From assembly GCA_021813125.1 (NCBI GenBank), contig JAKALT010000002.1, positions 75,424 through 112,265 on the forward strand: DNA of 36,842 nucleotides. Direction: 5' to 3'. The position numbers and the translations under genes were made by a program. Source of the DNA: a bacterium. GTDB taxonomy: Bacteria; Patescibacteriota; Microgenomatia; Curtissbacterales; GWA2-41-24. Shown here in pieces: positions 19,781-36,842 of this stretch (position 1 is its first letter; each line of letters opens with the position of its first letter). The notes below the pieces were generated by a model. The model saw only the letters and a program-made list of their open reading frames with translations. It was not told where the DNA came from and ran no database searches.

Positions 19781-19801
19781 GCTTTTTTGTATAATCCAAA
19801 T

Positions 19802-20674
19802 ATGTGGTTTTGGTTTGCTTTCGGGTCCGCGATTTTGGGCGCTTTTGATGTTATCCTAAATAAAAAATTACTACACAAGGTTAGTGCTGCTGTTTTAACC
19901 TGGTCGCTTTTTGCTTTGACCTTGCCAATTGTTGCGGCGATTGTTTTGTTAAGCGGACCACCTTCTATCAACCAATTATTTTTCGTTGGAGTATTTGGCT
20001 CGGCATTTTCTTTCGTTTTTGCCAAAACAATTATAAACGAGACCCTAAAACAAAATCTTATTTCCAAAGTTTTTCCACTGACTGCTTTTGGCGGATTTTT
20101 TACTTATATTTTTGCACTTTTACTGCTTTCGGAAACAATACGGCCAATTCCGGTTTTGGGGCTATCGACAATTGTTGCCGGATCCTACTTTTTAAATTTG
20201 GATATGGCCCGAGAGAGTTTTTTGAAACCATTTAAGGTTTTGTTTTCGTCGAAAGCTTCTCTTTTGTACCTTTTCGCAATCATGTTAAGCAGTATAACTT
20301 CTGTTTTTGACAAAATGGGAATAATAAGCACAGCGCCCAATAGCCCGGTTTTTGTGATGCTTATTGAGCAAGCTACGATGTCTGCGCTTCTTTTTTTGTT
20401 TTTGGTGAAAAAGGAAAAAGCAACTTGGCTCCCTGAGCTTAAGGGCAATTTCGGCTTCTTATTTTTAAATAGTCTCCTTTTTCTTGTTGTTTCGTTTTTG
20501 GTTTTTTACGCTTTTGTTACGGGTCCCGTTGCGCTTGCGATGGCGGTAAAGCGGCTTCAGATATTTTTCATTCTTATCCTGAGTATTTTATTTTTCAAGG
20601 AAAAACCGGCAAGACATGTTTGGATTTCTACGGCAATTATGATTTTAGGGGCGATCCTTATTAAGGTTGGCTAG
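19802..20674 (+). CDS. EamA/DMT-superfamily transporter
   Basis: About ten hydrophobic helices; duplicated EamA architecture, ...GPVALAMAVKRLQIFFILILSILFFKEKPARHVWISTAIMILGAILI; TATAAT at 19790-19795. Confidence 0.85.
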   Translation: MWFWFAFGSAILGAFDVILNKKLLHKVSAAVLTWSLFALTLPIVAAIVLLSGPPSINQLFFVGVFGSAFSFVFAKTIINETLKQNLISKVFPLTAFGGFFTYIFALLLLSETIRPIPVLGLSTIVAGSYFLNLDMARESFLKPFKVLFSSKASLLYLFAIMLSSITSVFDKMGIISTAPNSPVFVMLIEQATMSALLFLFLVKKEKATWLPELKGNFGFLFLNSLLFLVVSFLVFYAFVTGPVALAMAVKRLQIFFILILSILFFKEKPARHVWISTAIMILGAILIKVG

Positions 20675-29617: not shown

Positions 29618-29738
29618 AACTTTCATATATTCTTTTGTTTTTGCTTGAACCATCATCCCCATCAGCAATAACAATTTAAAGCCACAGAACCACAAGTTTC
29701 GATGTTTGGTCTATTTGATCCACTGGAATTAACGTTGT

Positions 29739-29755
29739 CGCAGAAATTGAAGGGG
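29739..29755 (+). repeat. Cassette-boundary repeat copy 1 (partial): cgcagaaattgaagggg
   Basis: 17/17 identical to the corresponding part of copy 8; lacks the GCGGG half. Confidence 0.7.
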
Positions 29756-29793
29756 TTGCCGTCAAAGATTGTCTTTGTTGAGATTTAATTTAT

Positions 29794-30207
29794 TTATCTT
29801 GGTTTTAACTCAATCTCGCTTTTTACCTGGTCGATGCATACTTTAAAATGGTCGAAGAACCCTTGCCTGCCCAGAATGCCGGATATCAGACCGTTCATTA
29901 ATAACCCATCTTTAAAACCGCATCTGGTTTTTATTTCTTCGCCACCGATGTTGATATAAATATTATCGAAATAATAAATGTCGGCGCTTTCACCGATTCC
30001 ACCTGTTTTTATAAATTCGCCATCTTTGATATTTAAACCCAAAAACACAGCAACATCTTTATCTAAAATACAATAATCCGCCCCGGAATCAACAAGCATT
30101 AAAAATTCCTTTTCCTCGTCGTTTGCCTTAACTTTTGCCGGTATCCAAGGAACGGAAATTGATTTCTTTTTCGGATCCGGGGTTGGGAAGTTTAAAATAA
30201 GGGAATT
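29794..30207 (-). CDS. Retropepsin-like aspartyl protease (copy A); start uncertain
   Basis: LMLVDSGADYCILDKDVAVFLGL...IGESADIYYFDNIYINIGG...GILGRQGFFDHFKVCIDQ. The frame is open upstream of the annotated ATG (30099) and encodes NFPTPDPKKKSISVPWIPAKVKANDEEKEF, matching the layout of copy B. Confidence 0.75.
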   Translation of the reverse strand, partial: NSLILNFPTPDPKKKSISVPWIPAKVKANDEEKEFLMLVDSGADYCILDKDVAVFLGLNIKDGEFIKTGGIGESADIYYFDNIYINIGGEEIKTRCGFKDGLLMNGLISGILGRQGFFDHFKVCIDQVKSEIELKPR

Positions 30208-30210
30208 TCA

Positions 30211-30402
30211 CTATGGGGCTACCGGACCGTAAGATTTCGCGGCCCGCATTAGAACAGGCTCTTTTACCCCTTGGGATTTGGCTTCACTGATTGCTTTATC
30301 TATTGTTTTGCCATGGCCGACTACTTTTTTATAGTCCGGGGATAATGCTAGCCAGCCACTGGTATATTTTTTTATAATCTTTGTCAGGTCTATTTGTTTC
30401 AT
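30211..30402 (-). CDS. DUF5678-like small protein (copy A)
   Basis: GWLALSPDYKKVVGHGKTIDKAISEAKSQGVKEPVLMRA; TATAAT at 30411-30416, 8 nt before the ATG. Confidence 0.78.
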   Translation of the reverse strand: MKQIDLTKIIKKYTSGWLALSPDYKKVVGHGKTIDKAISEAKSQGVKEPVLMRAAKSYGPVAP

Positions 30403-30410
30403 TTACAAAT

Positions 30411-30416
30411 ATTATA
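30411..30416 (-). promoter_or_regulatory. -10 box TATAAT, leaderless-type spacing (8 nt to start codon)
   Basis: TAGTATAAT followed by ATTTGTAA-ATG. Confidence 0.65.
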
Positions 30417-30432
30417 CTATAGATTTTTTGCA

Positions 30433-30451
30433 CGGGCGCAGAAATTGAGGG
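30433..30451 (+). repeat. Cassette-boundary repeat copy 2: cgggcgcagaaattgaggg
   Basis: Matches the consensus GCGGGCGCAGAAATTGAGGGG. Confidence 0.9.
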
Positions 30452-30462
30452 ATTATTTTTGT

Positions 30463-30675
30463 TCAGGCTGCTTGATGTTCGAGCTTTTCGACTCTTTTTT
30501 CAAGATTTTTCGTTTTTTCGCTAGTATCCTCGATGTAACTTTGTAAATCGACCAGCACATCGGTCTTTTTTTGAACATCTATCATGTCGAGTGTTAGGGA
30601 GTCGAGTTTTTGGTTGACAGGTTCCAGCTTAGTATCTAGTAGTTCTTCTATTTGCTTTAGGTCTGATTTATCCAT
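30463..30675 (-). CDS. Small coiled-coil protein
   Basis: Heptad-like MDKSDLKQIEELLDTKLEPVNQKLDSLTLDMIDVQKK...EKTKNLEKRVEKLEHQ; putative promoter TTGATT-N17-TAAATT. Confidence 0.7.
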   Translation of the reverse strand: MDKSDLKQIEELLDTKLEPVNQKLDSLTLDMIDVQKKTDVLVDLQSYIEDTSEKTKNLEKRVEKLEHQAA

Positions 30676-30728
30676 TGCTTATCTAATTTAGAGAGGTTAG
30701 GTTGAAAAATCAAGAGCCAGCTTAGCTT

Positions 30729-30748
30729 GCGGGCGCAGAAATTGAGGG
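30729..30748 (+). repeat. Cassette-boundary repeat copy 3: gcgggcgcagaaattgaggg
   Basis: Matches the consensus; extended identity ttagcttgcgggcgcagaaattgaggg with copy 7. Confidence 0.92.
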
Positions 30749-30785
30749 ATGATAAGAAATGTCTAGTATTTGCTCGTTAAGCCTT

Positions 30786-31217
30786 CTAAACAGAAATTAT
30801 TATTTCTTCTTCGCGCCTATTGAATGTAATTTGTTTAAATTTATCAAAAAAACCTTGTTGACCAAAAAGCGGTACGCTAATCTCCTCACCAAAATCTATT
30901 GTAGTTTCAAAACTGTAACCTTCTATAAATATTTTTATTCCAGAATGCCGGAAAGTCTTAACCCTTTTCCCGCCAATGCCTTCATTTATTTTTTCAATAC
31001 CTTTTCTTAGGCTTATTCCTAAAGCACTTGCAATTTCTGCAGGGAAAAGATTGTAGTCTGCTCCAGAATCAATAAGTGCGCCCATAGGCCCAAACATCTT
31101 TCCGTGTCTATAGTTTAAACTGAAATAAATTATTGGTCTTGCGACTTCCCCAATTTTCTTACCAGATTTATTGACTACAGGAAAAACTTGATAGTAAATT
31201 TTTACTGAGGCTGCCAT
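30786..31217 (-). CDS. Retropepsin-like aspartyl protease (copy B)
   Basis: PMGALIDSGADYNLFPAEIASALGI...EGIGGKRVKTFRHSGIKIFIEG...PLFGQQGFFDKFKQITFNRREEEIIISV; start overlaps the upstream stop (TGATG). Confidence 0.85.
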   Translation of the reverse strand: MAASVKIYYQVFPVVNKSGKKIGEVARPIIYFSLNYRHGKMFGPMGALIDSGADYNLFPAEIASALGISLRKGIEKINEGIGGKRVKTFRHSGIKIFIEGYSFETTIDFGEEISVPLFGQQGFFDKFKQITFNRREEEIIISV

Positions 31218-31402
31218 CAGGGAGAGAATGTAACGTCGAGGGGTGGCACCCTCATCAATACCGGCTTATCAACCTTCTTTGAAGCTTTCTCTAAAACTTC
31301 CTTAAGATTTTTACCGCCTGCGATAATAATTTTTCTATTTTTATCTAAGGCAACCCACTTGTCACTGTATTTTTCGATGCCTTTTATTGGCTTCTGTTTC
31401 AT
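31217..31402 (-). CDS. DUF5678-like small protein (copy B)
   Basis: KWVALDKNRKIIIAGGKNLKEVLEKASKKVDKPVLMRVPP; TATAAT at 31410-31415. Confidence 0.8.
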   Translation of the reverse strand: MKQKPIKGIEKYSDKWVALDKNRKIIIAGGKNLKEVLEKASKKVDKPVLMRVPPLDVTFSP

Positions 31403-31409
31403 GTAATTA

Positions 31410-31415
31410 ATTATA
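31410..31415 (-). promoter_or_regulatory. -10 box TATAAT, 7 nt to start codon
   Basis: GTAGTATAAT-TAATTAC-ATG. Confidence 0.65.
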
Positions 31416-31429
31416 CTACAGATTTTTTG

Positions 31430-31450
31430 GCGGGCGCAGAAATTGAGGGG
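31430..31450 (+). repeat. Cassette-boundary repeat copy 4: gcgggcgcagaaattgagggg
   Basis: Exact consensus. Confidence 0.93.
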
Positions 31451-31465
31451 CTTGGGAAAAAAATA

Positions 31466-33217
31466 TCAATTTTTTAGGCCAGCAGTTTTACTCTTTGCTT
31501 CTATTTCTATTTTCCGCCTGGCTTTAACATCTGCTATATAGTGTTTCAGATCTGCCTTTGTCGGTTTTTCTATATCAGCAAATCTTAGTGACCAAAAAAC
31601 ATATCTAATTTCATCAGGCGAAAAACCTTCTACTTCTTTCGCAAAAGAATCAATGAGTTCATCGGGAAGATCGTAACTATTCGCTTCTGCATGATACTTA
31701 GCTACTTCTTTTCGTTCTTCAACTGAGGGTTCCTGATAAACTAAAATCTTTGCTGTTCTTCCTGGCCTTGTAACAGCTGGGTCTATTACATCCGGCCTAT
31801 TAGTAGTGGCGAAAATGTGCAAATTTGGAGGATACGAATCTGATCCTATCGAGTCTATTTTTAAAAGTTCGCTCGTCGATGCGGAACGCAGACGATCCCC
31901 TGAAACAGCATCTATGTCCTCGACAATTGCGAAAATGTGCAAATCCGGATGATGATCAGCAATTCTTGCAACTGATCTAACATCTACCATATCGCCAGAT
32001 CGCGAAGCGTTCGGGTTAATGTTTAATATTAATCCTCTGGCGTTTTTAGGTAAATTGCTCAGGAATGCTCTAACACCTAAAGACTTGCCAAGCCCTGGTT
32101 TGCCAGCAGATATGATAATCCTCATCTCATCCAATGTTGGATTTTGCTCTTCGGTTTTTGCAATTAAAGCTCTTAGAAAACTTTTCTGGTCATCGTAGCC
32201 TGCTATATCATCAAACGATGCTTGAGTTATTTCTTCGGGAACAAGCTGCGTTTCTACCCCATATGGCGTTTTTTGAACAACAACTTTTAGGACTTTACCT
32301 CGCCTTAGAATTGTTTGGGAAAGTAGATTTTGAATCTCTTCCAAGGTATATTCACCGCTTAGCATTTTACCCGCTAATGCATAAGCTTTGGATATATATT
32401 TCTTGTCGAAAGATGGAATTTTAAAAGGACTAGCTTCCGGAGTCCACCTAACCGGGTATTTACTGCTGTTTTCCTCGAAAGTGGCTACCCTTGCATCAAA
32501 ATCGAATGATTCTACAAATTCTACCGCTTCTTGAAAATAAGCCCTCTGGCCTTCAATAACATCTTCATTGATAGGGACAGACGCAAGAGGGACAGTTTCT
32601 CGGTCATCATCATCGACTTGTTCCGGAATGATAGTGGAGCTAAAAGGTGCTGACAAAAGCAGCTCGGTTAATAAAGCCTGTTTGAAATTTACTTCACCAT
32701 ATAGGGCTACTAAATCACTTCGCACTCCGTGAATGCGTTCAAGGCAAGCCCTTTTGTTGAAAATCACGTCTTCGTCACGACCAATCTGTTTATAGCTTTC
32801 AAAACGCTGATCTCGACCTCTTTCTCTTTTTTGGCCGCTACCTAAGGATAATTGTCTTTTTTTATAGGCGAGATACTGCAGGGAATATTTGCCATCTTTC
32901 ATATCTGCTTGGAGTTGTTCAATGTCATCATCTGAGAGCAAAGTACCATTAGCATACCTATTGCGGATAAATCGGTTTAAAAATGACTGTTCGCTTGCCG
33001 GGTCTGTTTCATCTTGCTCGACAAACCCATAAAAAAGTTGCATTCCGTGTGCTATTTCGGGGTAAAGCCTGGAGATTGTGCTTATGTTGTAATTGGTGAG
33101 TATTCCTACGTAGTTTCCCGGCGGGTGTGTAGCAAAGAAATCTTCTTCTCTTGCCAATATTCCTTTTTCCTCTGCTATTTGGGAATCGCTATTTTGTCCT
33201 TCTGGGCGTTCAAGCAT
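31466..33217 (-). CDS. AAA+ ATPase (FtsH/proteasomal-ATPase-like module) with novel N-terminal region
   Basis: Walker A SAGKPGLGKSLG, Walker B HIFAIVEDIDAVSG, sensor/second-region IFATTNRPDVIDPAVTRPGRTAKI. Confidence 0.9.
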   Translation of the reverse strand: MLERPEGQNSDSQIAEEKGILAREEDFFATHPPGNYVGILTNYNISTISRLYPEIAHGMQLFYGFVEQDETDPASEQSFLNRFIRNRYANGTLLSDDDIEQLQADMKDGKYSLQYLAYKKRQLSLGSGQKRERGRDQRFESYKQIGRDEDVIFNKRACLERIHGVRSDLVALYGEVNFKQALLTELLLSAPFSSTIIPEQVDDDDRETVPLASVPINEDVIEGQRAYFQEAVEFVESFDFDARVATFEENSSKYPVRWTPEASPFKIPSFDKKYISKAYALAGKMLSGEYTLEEIQNLLSQTILRRGKVLKVVVQKTPYGVETQLVPEEITQASFDDIAGYDDQKSFLRALIAKTEEQNPTLDEMRIIISAGKPGLGKSLGVRAFLSNLPKNARGLILNINPNASRSGDMVDVRSVARIADHHPDLHIFAIVEDIDAVSGDRLRSASTSELLKIDSIGSDSYPPNLHIFATTNRPDVIDPAVTRPGRTAKILVYQEPSVEERKEVAKYHAEANSYDLPDELIDSFAKEVEGFSPDEIRYVFWSLRFADIEKPTKADLKHYIADVKARRKIEIEAKSKTAGLKN

Positions 33218-33276
33218 AAAAACTGGCAGGAATTTTTAGAATTATATGTTTAGTGGCTGCTTAAAGCAAATTTCGA

Positions 33277-33297
33277 GCGGGCGGAGAAATTGAGAGG
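33277..33297 (+). repeat. Cassette-boundary repeat copy 5: gcgggcggagaaattgagagg
   Basis: Matches the consensus with two substitutions; flank aaatttcga shared with copy 10. Confidence 0.9.
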
Positions 33298-33299
33298 AG

Positions 33300-33761
33300 T
33301 TAATCAACTGTTGGGTAACTTTTGGCTAATTTGGCAATTTGGGTGATAGCCCATTTTCCAAAAGGGCTATTTAGTAGAATTGTGTCTACATTAGGTGTGG
33401 TATATAAAATAGCTTCACCTGATTGTAAATGGGAAAGTGCGAGACAAAAGCGTCGCCCTGTACTCATTTTGAGAGCTGCTTCGGAGGTTGCAAGCCGAAT
33501 TTCCAATTTTTCTGCTGCTGTGTCCCTGGTGAGTGAAATCCAAGGATTTTCTTCATCAAAACCGGCAGCATTTGCTTCACCGCTAACTGTAGTTAAAATC
33601 CCATGTTTCGGATGAAGAAATCTTAAGCACGTATTGGTTGTTAGCTCGCCCTTTGTGTTTAATCTAAAAAATTCAGCCAACTTTGATTCATCTGGACCCA
33701 TCGCTCTAAATTCTTCTAAAACCTGGTCTGCTTCTGTTTGTGTTGAAGGAAGCTCGTTCAT
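33300..33761 (-). CDS. Hypothetical 153-aa protein
   Basis: ORF bounded by repeats; TATAAT at 33770-33775, 8 nt before the ATG. Confidence 0.65.
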   Translation of the reverse strand: MNELPSTQTEADQVLEEFRAMGPDESKLAEFFRLNTKGELTTNTCLRFLHPKHGILTTVSGEANAAGFDEENPWISLTRDTAAEKLEIRLATSEAALKMSTGRRFCLALSHLQSGEAILYTTPNVDTILLNSPFGKWAITQIAKLAKSYPTVD

Positions 33762-33807
33762 GATGGTGGATTATAAAACTATATATGGTAAACAGCAAAT
33801 TTTTAGT

Positions 33808-33828
33808 GCGGGCGGAGAAATTGAGGGG
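33808..33828 (+). repeat. Cassette-boundary repeat copy 6: gcgggcggagaaattgagggg
   Basis: Matches the consensus; shares agcaaattt...gcgggcggagaaattgag with copy 5. Confidence 0.92.
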
Positions 33829-33893
33829 GTGATTTTTGGACAATTAAATTTTGTTTGACTTAGCAGGCAAAAAACATTATATTCATAAACCAA

Positions 33894-34130
33894 ATGCCAG
33901 AAATATTAAGGTTGTTCCATTTATCTTCAAGACCTCGACGTATGTCCCCAGGTGAGCTTGGGGCAAATTTACGTTTGGCACATGAGGGGCAAGGATTAAG
34001 CCAAAAGGAAATTCTTGCATCGATAGACCAGACCGCTGCGCAAAAAGGTGAAGATCGTACTGCAGTTTTGCACGATTATGTTTCGCAAAACCTTCAATTG
34101 TACTTTGGTGCCCCAAAAACCAAAAGGTAG
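33894..34130 (+). CDS. Small HTH-like protein
   Basis: RMSPGELGANLRLAHEGQGLSQKEILASID resembles a HTH segment; chosen over the antisense ORF 33883-34116. Confidence 0.55.
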   Translation: MPEILRLFHLSSRPRRMSPGELGANLRLAHEGQGLSQKEILASIDQTAAQKGEDRTAVLHDYVSQNLQLYFGAPKTKR

Positions 34131-34170
34131 ATTATTATCCTTTAATTATTTTTAATTGCCGCTTTAGCTT

Positions 34171-34191
34171 GCGGGCGCAGAAATTGAGGGG
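34171..34191 (+). repeat. Cassette-boundary repeat copy 7: gcgggcgcagaaattgagggg
   Basis: Exact consensus. Confidence 0.93.
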
Positions 34192-34200
34192 GTTTAAAAT

Positions 34201-34764
34201 TTAAGAACTTGGGCTGGGCAATAACATCGGGAATGTTTCAATATGTTCGGTTGTCGCCTCGATTTGCCCTAGAAAAGTCTCGACCAAAGCTCTGTTATTT
34301 TCTATTTCTTCCGGAGTTTGTGCGGAAAGTATCTTAGCTAAGTTTTCTTTAGCCACCTGCATCATTCCATACCCACTGAGCCCAAACCGTTCATTTATTT
34401 CCGAAGGGGAATCTATATGGCCGATGCAGTAAGGGCTTTTAAGGTCTCCCAAGACGCAGCCTCCTTCTGTCCTATGGTAAGGACAATCAGTCAACTCGCT
34501 TTCACCCGGAGTTTGCGCATTCCTTACTTCGCGCAATTCTATTAGCGCATCTCTTGCGATGCCTACGAGTTCCTGCTCGGAAGATTCCCTATCCTGATTT
34601 CCACAGCTTCCAACCATATGATAATCATCGCCAGGTTTAGCCCATTTCCATAATTCATACTTTATTCTTGGGCTCATAGCCTCAAACATTTTTTGCAAAG
34701 CGCTAGTGACCTCGCGATATTGGCTTATAACGCCATCGACCGATTCTTGAGGAGTTCTCTCCAT
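34201..34764 (-). CDS. Hypothetical protein with Cys cluster (YkgJ-like spacing)
   Basis: DCPYHRTEGGCVLGDLKSPYCIGHI; TATAAT at 34773-34778, 8 nt before the ATG. Confidence 0.65.
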   Translation of the reverse strand: MERTPQESVDGVISQYREVTSALQKMFEAMSPRIKYELWKWAKPGDDYHMVGSCGNQDRESSEQELVGIARDALIELREVRNAQTPGESELTDCPYHRTEGGCVLGDLKSPYCIGHIDSPSEINERFGLSGYGMMQVAKENLAKILSAQTPEEIENNRALVETFLGQIEATTEHIETFPMLLPSPSS

Positions 34765-34800
34765 AACAGCGGATTATATCAAATTGAGGCTAATTTAGCG

Positions 34801-34822
34801 GCGGGCGCAGAAATTGAAGGGG
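34801..34822 (+). repeat. Cassette-boundary repeat copy 8: gcgggcgcagaaattgaagggg
   Basis: Consensus with one inserted A, shared with copy 1. Confidence 0.92.
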
Positions 34823-34831
34823 CTTTGGATT

Positions 34832-35158
34832 TTAAGAAAACTTATCAATAGCAATAATGGTAGCCGCTAGTGTAGTAGATACGTGATAAAAGGAAAAACC
34901 TACGTTTCTTATAGACATTGCTTGCTGTCTCATGAGAGCCCTCCAATTAGTCGGCTCCGGCCAGTCTTTTGTGCCTATACTCACAACATTATCTGGGTGT
35001 AATGTAGATGCTATTGATTCCCTTACGGATTCTCCCGATGCCCTTCTGTTTCTTTCAATGTAAGTTATGGCACCAACACCAGGAATTAAATCGGGGAATA
35101 TCCTAAAATTTGGCATTGAAATGTCGCTGTAGTCTGAAGTTCTTCGCTCAGCTGTCAT
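34832..35158 (-). CDS. Hypothetical 108-aa protein
   Basis: ORF bounded by repeats; TATAAT at 35167-35172, 8 nt before the ATG. Confidence 0.6.
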   Translation of the reverse strand: MTAERRTSDYSDISMPNFRIFPDLIPGVGAITYIERNRRASGESVRESIASTLHPDNVVSIGTKDWPEPTNWRALMRQQAMSIRNVGFSFYHVSTTLAATIIAIDKFS

Positions 35159-35179
35159 TGTGCAACATTATATCAAAAT

Positions 35180-35196
35180 GCGCGGAAATTGAGGGG
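35180..35196 (+). repeat. Cassette-boundary repeat copy 9 (5' shortened): gcgcggaaattgagggg
   Basis: Matches the right 17 nt of copy 10. Confidence 0.88.
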
Positions 35197-35210
35197 TGAA
35201 ATAATGAAAA

Positions 35211-35921
35211 CTAAATTTCTTTTCCTAATTTCCAGCGTTTTTCAAAGATGTCGCTCATCAGTTTAGCGTAAGGCGGATATTCAAACCTCATACCAATTGC
35301 TTCTTCCTTTATTTTTGCATTGTAGGAGGTAAAGTAAACAATTTTTTTATCAATTATAAAAATACGTGCTTCCATGTTGGAAAAATATTTTACTTTAACA
35401 CCTATTTTCTTCCAGTTTTTAAACATTTGGGAACTGGTTTCATCTAAGTTTTGAACAAGTGCCCTAATTTTTACTCCTCTGCGAGCAGCTTCTTTATATG
35501 AAAGAACTGCCTCCGCCGGTATTTCCAGACCGGATACGATAAAACTTACAGTTTCTTTGGCATTTTTTATGTCCCGACCTATTTCTTCGAGTAAATGTTG
35601 CCTATCTCTTATAAAAGAAATGTTAAGCGGTTTAGCGCTTGGGCCTTTTAAACTGAATGTTTCTTGAAAATCCTTCCGCAATGCAGATTGATAAAGATCA
35701 AAGGAGTCTTCGGCCGGCATTGCTTTAAATTGAACAGGATATTTGCCAACTTTCTGAACTATCCCAATTTCGATCAACGGTTTTGCTGCCCTGTAAACAG
35801 CCGGAGGCAACACATTAAGTTTTTCGGCAATTGCTTTTGCGCTTAGTGGCCCCTCACGAGAAAGCAGCGAATAAACGTTAAGTGCCTGCGGCGGTATGGT
35901 TTTTAATAAAAAGTTCGTCAT
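35211..35921 (-). CDS. TrmB-like transcriptional regulator (HTH + PLD-like sensor domain)
   Basis: PPQALNVYSLLSREGPLSAKAIAEKLNVLPPAVYRAAKPLIEIGIVQKV...ETVSFIVSGLEIPAEAVLSYKEAARRGVKIRALVQ. Confidence 0.85.
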   Translation of the reverse strand: MTNFLLKTIPPQALNVYSLLSREGPLSAKAIAEKLNVLPPAVYRAAKPLIEIGIVQKVGKYPVQFKAMPAEDSFDLYQSALRKDFQETFSLKGPSAKPLNISFIRDRQHLLEEIGRDIKNAKETVSFIVSGLEIPAEAVLSYKEAARRGVKIRALVQNLDETSSQMFKNWKKIGVKVKYFSNMEARIFIIDKKIVYFTSYNAKIKEEAIGMRFEYPPYAKLMSDIFEKRWKLGKEI

Positions 35922-35980
35922 TTGCTGCGTATTTTAACATATTTTGGTTAAAACTTGCCAAAAAGTTAAAATTTCACGAT

Positions 35981-36670
35981 ATGAGCAAAAAGCCCTATAA
36001 GTATTTGGACTTAATAATCTTTTTAAGTGTGACGATGATGGCAATTGTCAACGTCATCTCCGGAAAAATAATCCGTGTTTCCGTTTTTACGCTTTCTGCA
36101 GCTTCGCTTTGTATTCCTGTAAATTACATTTTTGCGGACGTTTTAACGGAAGTTTACGGCTACAAGCAGGCGCGGCGTGCTACCTGGATACTAATCTTTT
36201 CCACCATATTAATGGCTATATTTTTTCAGCTAGCAATACTTTTGCCACCCGCTCCCGGTTTTAAGGGAAATGACGCTTATACTTTGGTTTTAGGCCAAGT
36301 CCCCAGGGTCGTTGTTGGTGCGTGGATTGCGTTATTTGCCGGCCAAATTACAAACGATTTTGTTCTGGCAAAAATGAAACTTTTTACAGGAGGAAAATAT
36401 TTGTGGACGAGGACGGTTGGTTCAACTGTTGCCGGACAAGCGGTTGATTCGTCGCTCTTTTATACAATCGCCCTATACAACGTTATTCCGGCCGGTTTTT
36501 TAATGAAAAGTATTTTGTCTGCGTGGTTTCTTAAAGTTTTTATCGAAATTGTTATGACTCCTGTTACCTATTTTGTTATAAGAAAGCTAAAGAAGGCCGA
36601 AGATGAAGATTATTTTGACCGCAACACTAACTTCAACCCCCTTTTGGTTAAACTAAGGCAAGAAAAATAG
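35981..36670 (+). CDS. Queuosine precursor transporter (YhhQ/VUT family)-like
   Basis: SAASLCIPVNYIFADVLTEVYGYKQARRATWI...GQITNDFVLAKMKLFTGGKYLWTRTVGSTVAGQAVDSSLFYTIAL. Confidence 0.9.
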   Translation: MSKKPYKYLDLIIFLSVTMMAIVNVISGKIIRVSVFTLSAASLCIPVNYIFADVLTEVYGYKQARRATWILIFSTILMAIFFQLAILLPPAPGFKGNDAYTLVLGQVPRVVVGAWIALFAGQITNDFVLAKMKLFTGGKYLWTRTVGSTVAGQAVDSSLFYTIALYNVIPAGFLMKSILSAWFLKVFIEIVMTPVTYFVIRKLKKAEDEDYFDRNTNFNPLLVKLRQEK

Positions 36671-36688
36671 AACGATGGAAAATTTCGA

Positions 36689-36709
36689 GCGGGCGCGGAA
36701 ATTGAGGGG
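36689..36709 (+). repeat. Cassette-boundary repeat copy 10: gcgggcgcggaaattgagggg
   Basis: Matches the consensus with one substitution; preceded by aaatttcga as in copy 5. Confidence 0.93.
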
Positions 36710-36717
36710 TTTGAAAT

Positions 36718-36842
36718 TTATTTTTTTACGACGGCGATTACTTCGATTTCTAAAACACAACCAACTTTGACCAATTTGCTTACTTCTACTAAAGTCGATA
36801 CCGGTTCGGAATTTTTGAAATATTGATTCCGAACTTCGCTAA
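36718..36842 (-). CDS. RidA/YjgF family protein (C-terminal part only)
   Basis: Reverse translation SEVRNQYFKNSEPVSTLVEVSKLVKVGCVLEIEVIAVVKK*. Confidence 0.85.
   Translation of the reverse strand, partial: SEVRNQYFKNSEPVSTLVEVSKLVKVGCVLEIEVIAVVKK

Follow-up and report, generated by a model that had tools for sequence, protein, structure and literature searches.

Some elements insert into the 3′ end of a protein-coding gene and rebuild that end. In integron arrays, an integrase (IntI) moves cassettes with attC sites, and the arrays are rows of small genes with a site of fixed orientation just past the stop codon and a content that varies between relatives. The dif (pdif) modules of Acinetobacter plasmids are small modules with short recombinase-type sites between them; they have no recombinase of their own, their content is shuffled (PMC6449649, PMC13141974), and they often carry toxin–antitoxin pairs (PMC6449649). 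Among the bacterial retropepsin-like aspartic proteases, RC1339/APRc (PMC4140852) and Pseudomonas enzymes (PMC12239564) are single-domain clan AA proteases with a D-S/T-G motif. The papers searched contained nothing on a DUF5678 partner of such proteases, and literature searches for DUF5678, and for integrons among Patescibacteria, returned nothing relevant.

The window, that is, the whole stretch of 36,842 nt analysed here (G000:C11:75424–112265), ends exactly at the end of its contig. Contig C16 opens with the rest of the RidA gene cut at that point, followed by ftsZ, ftsA, murG, and the remaining division cluster, placing the array described below downstream of ftsZ via the C11/C16 join. 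Like an integron array, the locus is a row of small genes with a fixed-orientation site just past the stop codon and a content that differs between relatives; unlike one, it has no attC boxes or hairpin and no array integrase, its units have promoters, and its genes lie on both strands. It shares with the pdif modules the small units separated by short sites, the lack of a recombinase of its own, and shuffled content, but it is a chromosomal locus behind ftsZ with one site orientation and a GC-rich 21-nt repeat in which dif arms are not visible. We propose, with a probability of roughly two in three, that this locus downstream of ftsZ is a cassette-like hotspot specific to the genus, in which units are gained, lost, or exchanged at or next to the repeat, and that its two DUF5678–protease units (copies 1 and 2) arrived separately. 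The bacterium has a small genome and, judged by that and by its gene content, is probably a member of the Patescibacteria.

A 7-kb array of small genes and same-facing repeats

Ten same-facing direct repeats of ~21 nt (consensus GCGGGCGCAGAAATTGAGGGG) and about ten small gene units make up a 7-kb array at 29736–36709 of the window (Table 1). All ten repeats are in the plus orientation and all are intergenic, though genes occupy 89% of the stretch; 0.03 would be expected by chance in the window at up to 3 mismatches, and none of 100 shuffled controls reached ten. The orientation of the repeat is independent of that of the array genes, which lie on both strands. Relative to minus-strand genes, the repeat is mostly found 2–15 nt past stop codons and 17–59 nt ahead of starts.

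Table 1. Features of the repeat array, in window coordinates
Feature	Position	Strand	Evidence
Boundary repeat R1, degenerate (3 mismatches)	29736..29755	+	repeat search
Protease-1, clan AA (retropepsin-like), frame apparently broken between 30178 and 30199	29794..30211	-	
DUF5678-1	30211..30402	-	profile E = 9.3e-4, under Pfam cut-off
Leader/promoter of unit 1, TATAAT-type, common to unit 2	30403..30431	-	
Boundary repeat R2	30432..30452	+	repeat search
70-aa coiled-coil ORF, forming the unit bounded by R2 and R3	30463..30675	-	
Boundary repeat R3	30729..30749	+	repeat search
Protease-2, clan AA (retropepsin-like), 143 aa	30786..31217	-	
DUF5678-2	31217..31402	-	profile E = 2.3e-9, over cut-off
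Unit 2 leader/promoter, with homology to modules behind ftsZ in other genera	31403..31429	-	
Boundary repeat R4	31430..31450	+	repeat search
AAA ATPase unit	31466..33217	-	profile search
Boundary repeat R5	33277..33297	+	repeat search
153-aa protein, no family matched in profile searches	33300..33761	-	
Boundary repeat R6	33808..33828	+	repeat search
Small 78-aa protein, strand opposite to most units	33894..34130	+	
Boundary repeat R7	34171..34191	+	repeat search
187-aa protein, function not assigned	34201..34764	-	ORF
Boundary repeat R8	34801..34821	+	repeat search
108-aa protein, function not assigned	34832..35158	-	ORF
Boundary repeat R9 (3 mismatches)	35176..35196	+	repeat search
TrmB-type HTH + PLD-like protein	35211..35921	-	profile search
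Queuosine precursor transporter (TIGR00697)	35978..36670	+	profile match
Boundary repeat R10; high identity to congener begins here	36689..36709	+	
RidA-family gene, 3′ part, cut by contig end; 5′ part on C16:1-237	36717..36842	-	

The repeat was not found elsewhere in its own genome at up to 2 mismatches, nor downstream of ftsZ in other genera (twelve loci read). Across 382 genomes of the class, clusters of it occur in this genus only, and elsewhere there are single, chance-level matches that do not exceed the reversed control. It is carried by two genomes only, G000 and its congener G001, and gain or loss of units is read from that one comparison. GTDB genomes gave 30 matches and IMG/VR two, all compatible with chance save three in one Verrucomicrobia assembly. 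In that assembly (JAPLUI01; L049, L052, and L061), a repeated sequence with GGGCGCGGAAATTGAGGGG is present on three contigs, its flanks being unlike the array repeat; we did not accept these matches as true copies, as they are embedded in unrelated, locally repeated sequence.

Might the repeat instead be a regulatory or transcript-end motif, such as an operator, a processing site, or a terminator-like element, with the turnover of units being that of an ordinary hotspot? Its spacing from stops and minus-strand starts would suit this, as would the lack of a recombinase nearby, but its orientation is unchanged beside the two plus-strand genes, the genome has no copy elsewhere, and sequence identity between genomes starts exactly at the repeat. 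Nor do the repeats show a stable hairpin or attC-like strand folding (z between −1.8 and +1.5). On this balance, we regard the regulatory explanation as unlikely.

Somewhat less probable still is that host Xer recombinases move the units at dif-like sites, as in the Acinetobacter plasmids. G000 encodes three tyrosine recombinases, for which Xer models give the best match and the integron model only a weak one, and two core Xer proteins are kept in both G000 and G001. In addition, a weak dyad, CAATTTC-N11-GAAATTTG, is present in some repeat copies only; compared with a 28-bp XerC/XerD-type site with a 6-bp centre, no clear dif site was seen beyond this dyad. Against this, the left half of the repeat is poorly conserved, all copies face one way, and the repeat is to our knowledge unlike known dif arms. 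No recombinase is encoded within the array and no integron integrase in the array or on the start of the joined contig, the recombinases being on other contigs. The extra, 339-aa tyrosine recombinase of G000 was rejected as a dedicated enzyme, as it is absent from G001.

The same locus in a congener

At the same chromosomal place, G001 carries a smaller version of the array with 2–3 repeats and other genes. The RidA unit is common to both genomes, and high identity between them begins exactly at the last repeat of the array. In G000, this gene is split by the C11/C16 break (window 36842 / L067:1–237) with ~57 coding bases missing between the parts, and a recognisable repeat is present at one side of it only. 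Third-position differences between the congeners amount to 12/115 (10%) in RidA, a comparison that spans 344 aligned coding bases of the split gene, versus 142/368 in ftsZ and 180/426 in ftsA (about 40%). Since the RidA value is far below those of ftsZ and ftsA, the RidA unit was probably exchanged recently.

Two further observations concern this congener. In G001, the coding sequence of one gene (L064:14489–15187) ends within a repeat, from which it takes its final residues (SGRGN) and its stop codon. Outside the array, an EamA-type transporter gene has switched sides of RND efflux genes between the congeners (window 19787–20674; L064:16018–16890).

Two DUF5678–protease units with a common leader

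The initial annotation had described the two units, each with a DSGADY protease and separated by a coiled-coil unit, as a tandem duplication of the whole, including promoter and boundary repeat. The layout was present as described: each unit consists of a 61–63-aa DUF5678 gene overlapping a clan AA protease gene on the minus strand, with the DSGADY motif in both proteases. The unusual gap between repeat and protease stop was likewise confirmed (38 and 36 nt, against 2–15 nt at other minus-strand genes). So was the upstream similarity, with 50 of 57 columns agreeing across repeat, promoter, and ATGAAACA; of the 1326 pairs of upstream regions given by 52 DUF5678 genes, two rank above this one. 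However, the DNA alignment of the two units ends right after ATGAAACA, once the start codon is passed, so that the similarity is not one of whole units. At the protein level, the copies are 38% (DUF5678) and 27–35% (protease) identical.

Phylogenetic analysis gave the same picture. In the protease tree, copy 2 grouped with ftsZ-linked modules (support 92/97) and copy 1 was placed elsewhere. Forcing the two copies into one clade was rejected for the proteases (AU p = 0.0099) and, more weakly given its 62 columns, for DUF5678 (AU p = 0.027). Both trees were built before the relatives in G014 and G013 described below were found and thus lack them; adding these could only strengthen the non-sisterhood, because both are far closer to copy 1 than copy 2 is.

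Among the 382 genomes, the best relatives of the copy 1 protease are in G014 (70% identity) and G013 (56%), copy 2 reaching just 35%. The G014 module, which belongs to another genus and stands behind groEL, matches window 29791–30402 at 73% of the DNA, from the DUF5678 ATG to just past the protease stop. Homology ends at the DUF5678 start codon and the unit 1 leader is absent from the G014 module, which argues that the leader of copy 1 is not that of its own lineage. On the simplest view, this leader is that of the copy 2 lineage and was copied or recombined ahead of copy 1, with the direction being inferred. A position within codon 3 of DUF5678-1 was weighed for a chimeric junction between leader and body and then given up, since natural relatives likewise begin MK(P/A)ID; the junction can thus be assigned only to the start codon or its vicinity.

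The expected GTG start of protease-1, which overlaps the DUF5678 stop, runs into a stop after 27 codons, and the first usable start in the conserved frame is an ATG at 30099 (MLVDSGADY). The G014 relative has one open frame across the corresponding region. The protease-1 reading frame thus looks broken, which may reflect real decay, an assembly error, or a programmed shift.

For the copy 2 protease, the nearest relative is a G008 module (52%), followed by ftsZ-linked modules of other genera (42–45%). Four other genera have a DUF5678–protease module directly behind ftsZ, without a repeat array, and the leaders of ftsZ-linked modules in other genera match that of copy 2 as far as the repeat edge. 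These matches are best explained if copy 2 descends from the module lineage that immediately follows ftsZ in related genera. G007 also has a DUF5678 gene (L114:2356–2541) with 85% identity to copy 2, with no protease after it.

A whole-unit tandem duplication with leader and repeat, followed by fast coding divergence, would account for the identical gene order, the similar spacing to the repeat, and the matching leader. It is nevertheless very improbable, because copy 1 is nearer to a module of another genus than to copy 2 and the AU tests reject sisterhood; moreover, divergence is far greater in the coding parts than in the non-coding leader, whereas a duplication would give the opposite. Judged from these alignments and trees, the two units are separate acquisitions and not duplicates of each other. 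Of the initial proposal that the unit plus its repeat is the item copied, the repeat/promoter leader stands, whereas the coding bodies are not copies.

DUF5678–protease modules elsewhere in the class

DUF5678 is present in 103 of the 382 genomes of the class (27%), and in 51 of the 59 loci read a clan AA protease gene follows it immediately. DUF5678-2 scores 37.4 bits against a PF18929 cut-off of 23.2, which places it in the family; DUF5678-1, at 19.4 bits, is under the cut-off but shares 38% identity with copy 2 and can be aligned with the family. DSG is invariant in the protease family, PF13650 was matched in 6 of 10 members, and the family profile reaches Ddi1 (PDB, E = 9e-4) and retroviral proteases, each window protease singly falling just under the Pfam cut-off. 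On the D-S/T-G motif and the family profile match, we assign the proteases to the predicted retropepsin-like members of clan AA. The predicted protease model (pLDDT 37) was unusable for judging fold or homodimer, and the DUF5678 model, of medium confidence, had no structural match in the PDB.

In motif and single-domain organisation, these proteases resemble RC1339/APRc and the Pseudomonas enzymes; unlike those, they are ~140 aa long and, we infer, coupled to a small DUF5678 partner, which at a guess could be a substrate, an inhibitor, or an adaptor of the protease. A defence role was considered from weak matches to the PADLOC candidate models PDC-M08B and PDC-M52B (best E 1.6e-4), which we did not rely on.

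Flanking direct repeats with a score of at least 30 were found at 5 of 44 modules, the window's copy 2 being one of the five, versus 20 of 6000 random placements (0.33%), a control that mixes coding and intergenic DNA. In G008 (contig C16 of that genome; L116:3149–5014), four repeats of a DUF4012 gene's 3′ end (58 nt, 67–74% identical) bound two DUF5678–protease modules and a DUF433 gene; this is a second, independent module array. In G004 (C19; L129:2300–3130), a gene of 291 aa has a module at its 3′ end, and a displaced 80-nt copy of this end lies past the protease stop; in G018, direct repeats of the preceding gene's 3′ end stand on both sides of a module. The modules at L097:1436–2176 and L105:1438–2176, from two genera, are 93% identical in DNA with a matching flank near 78%, indicating that the module was recently exchanged as a block.

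Direct repeats of the upstream gene's 3′ end, as in G004, G008, and G018, recall elements that integrate at 3′ ends; unlike those, the modules measure 0.6 kb and have no integrase, and the repeated 3′ ends are divergent (67–75%), as if brought by a donor. The G008 and G004 repeats match the 21-nt repeat neither in sequence nor in length, and the process may differ as well. From these loci, a small module and its flanking repeat do seem to be added as one item. That part of the initial idea gained independent support in three other genera, while copies 1 and 2 themselves are not duplicates.

Discussion

Under the cassette-like hotspot proposed here, each unit would comprise a single gene or short operon that has its own promoter, and its boundary would be a ~21-nt direct repeat, always in one orientation. 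Recombination at or beside this repeat, the putative crossover site, would add, remove, or swap units between relatives. The copy 1 body would have come from a different lineage, whose nearest known relative lies behind groEL in another genus, and would have been placed behind a leader of repeat and promoter that was either copied from copy 2 or shared with it through recombination. The incoming body could then have been expressed from this ready-made leader, its protease frame now appearing broken. Candidate enzymes are the host Xer system with its two core proteins, another recombinase, or RecA-type exchange of transformed DNA; 21 nt is short for RecA-type exchange and the array encodes no recombinase, both of which count against the hotspot explanation.

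Least probable of all is an integron, in which cassettes would be moved at attC sites by an integron integrase: small genes closely trailed by a conserved site of fixed orientation and a genome with three tyrosine recombinases would fit it, but it failed on the features tested (attC sites and an integrase adjoining the array), with no RYYYAAC/GTTRRRY boxes in the repeat, no attC-like folding, recombinases closer to Xer than to integron models, and units that carry their own promoters.

Returning to the hotspot, a broader and more tentative possibility is an integrase-less cassette system, in which a short direct repeat, alone or together with a ready-made promoter, would be the landing site for small units moved by host recombinases or natural transformation, so that coding bodies on arrival come to lie behind a leader already present, and which would be common across the class with different repeats. 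If right, the hotspot explanation would offer a concrete route by which reduced-genome bacteria without visible integrons acquire single genes, through self-contained small modules that insert between short direct repeats, in many cases where a resident gene ends. The locus also illustrates an annotation trap, in that an apparent fresh tandem duplication can consist of independent arrivals behind a copied promoter. The DUF5678–protease pair, on which our literature search gave no paper, is a recurrent two-gene module.
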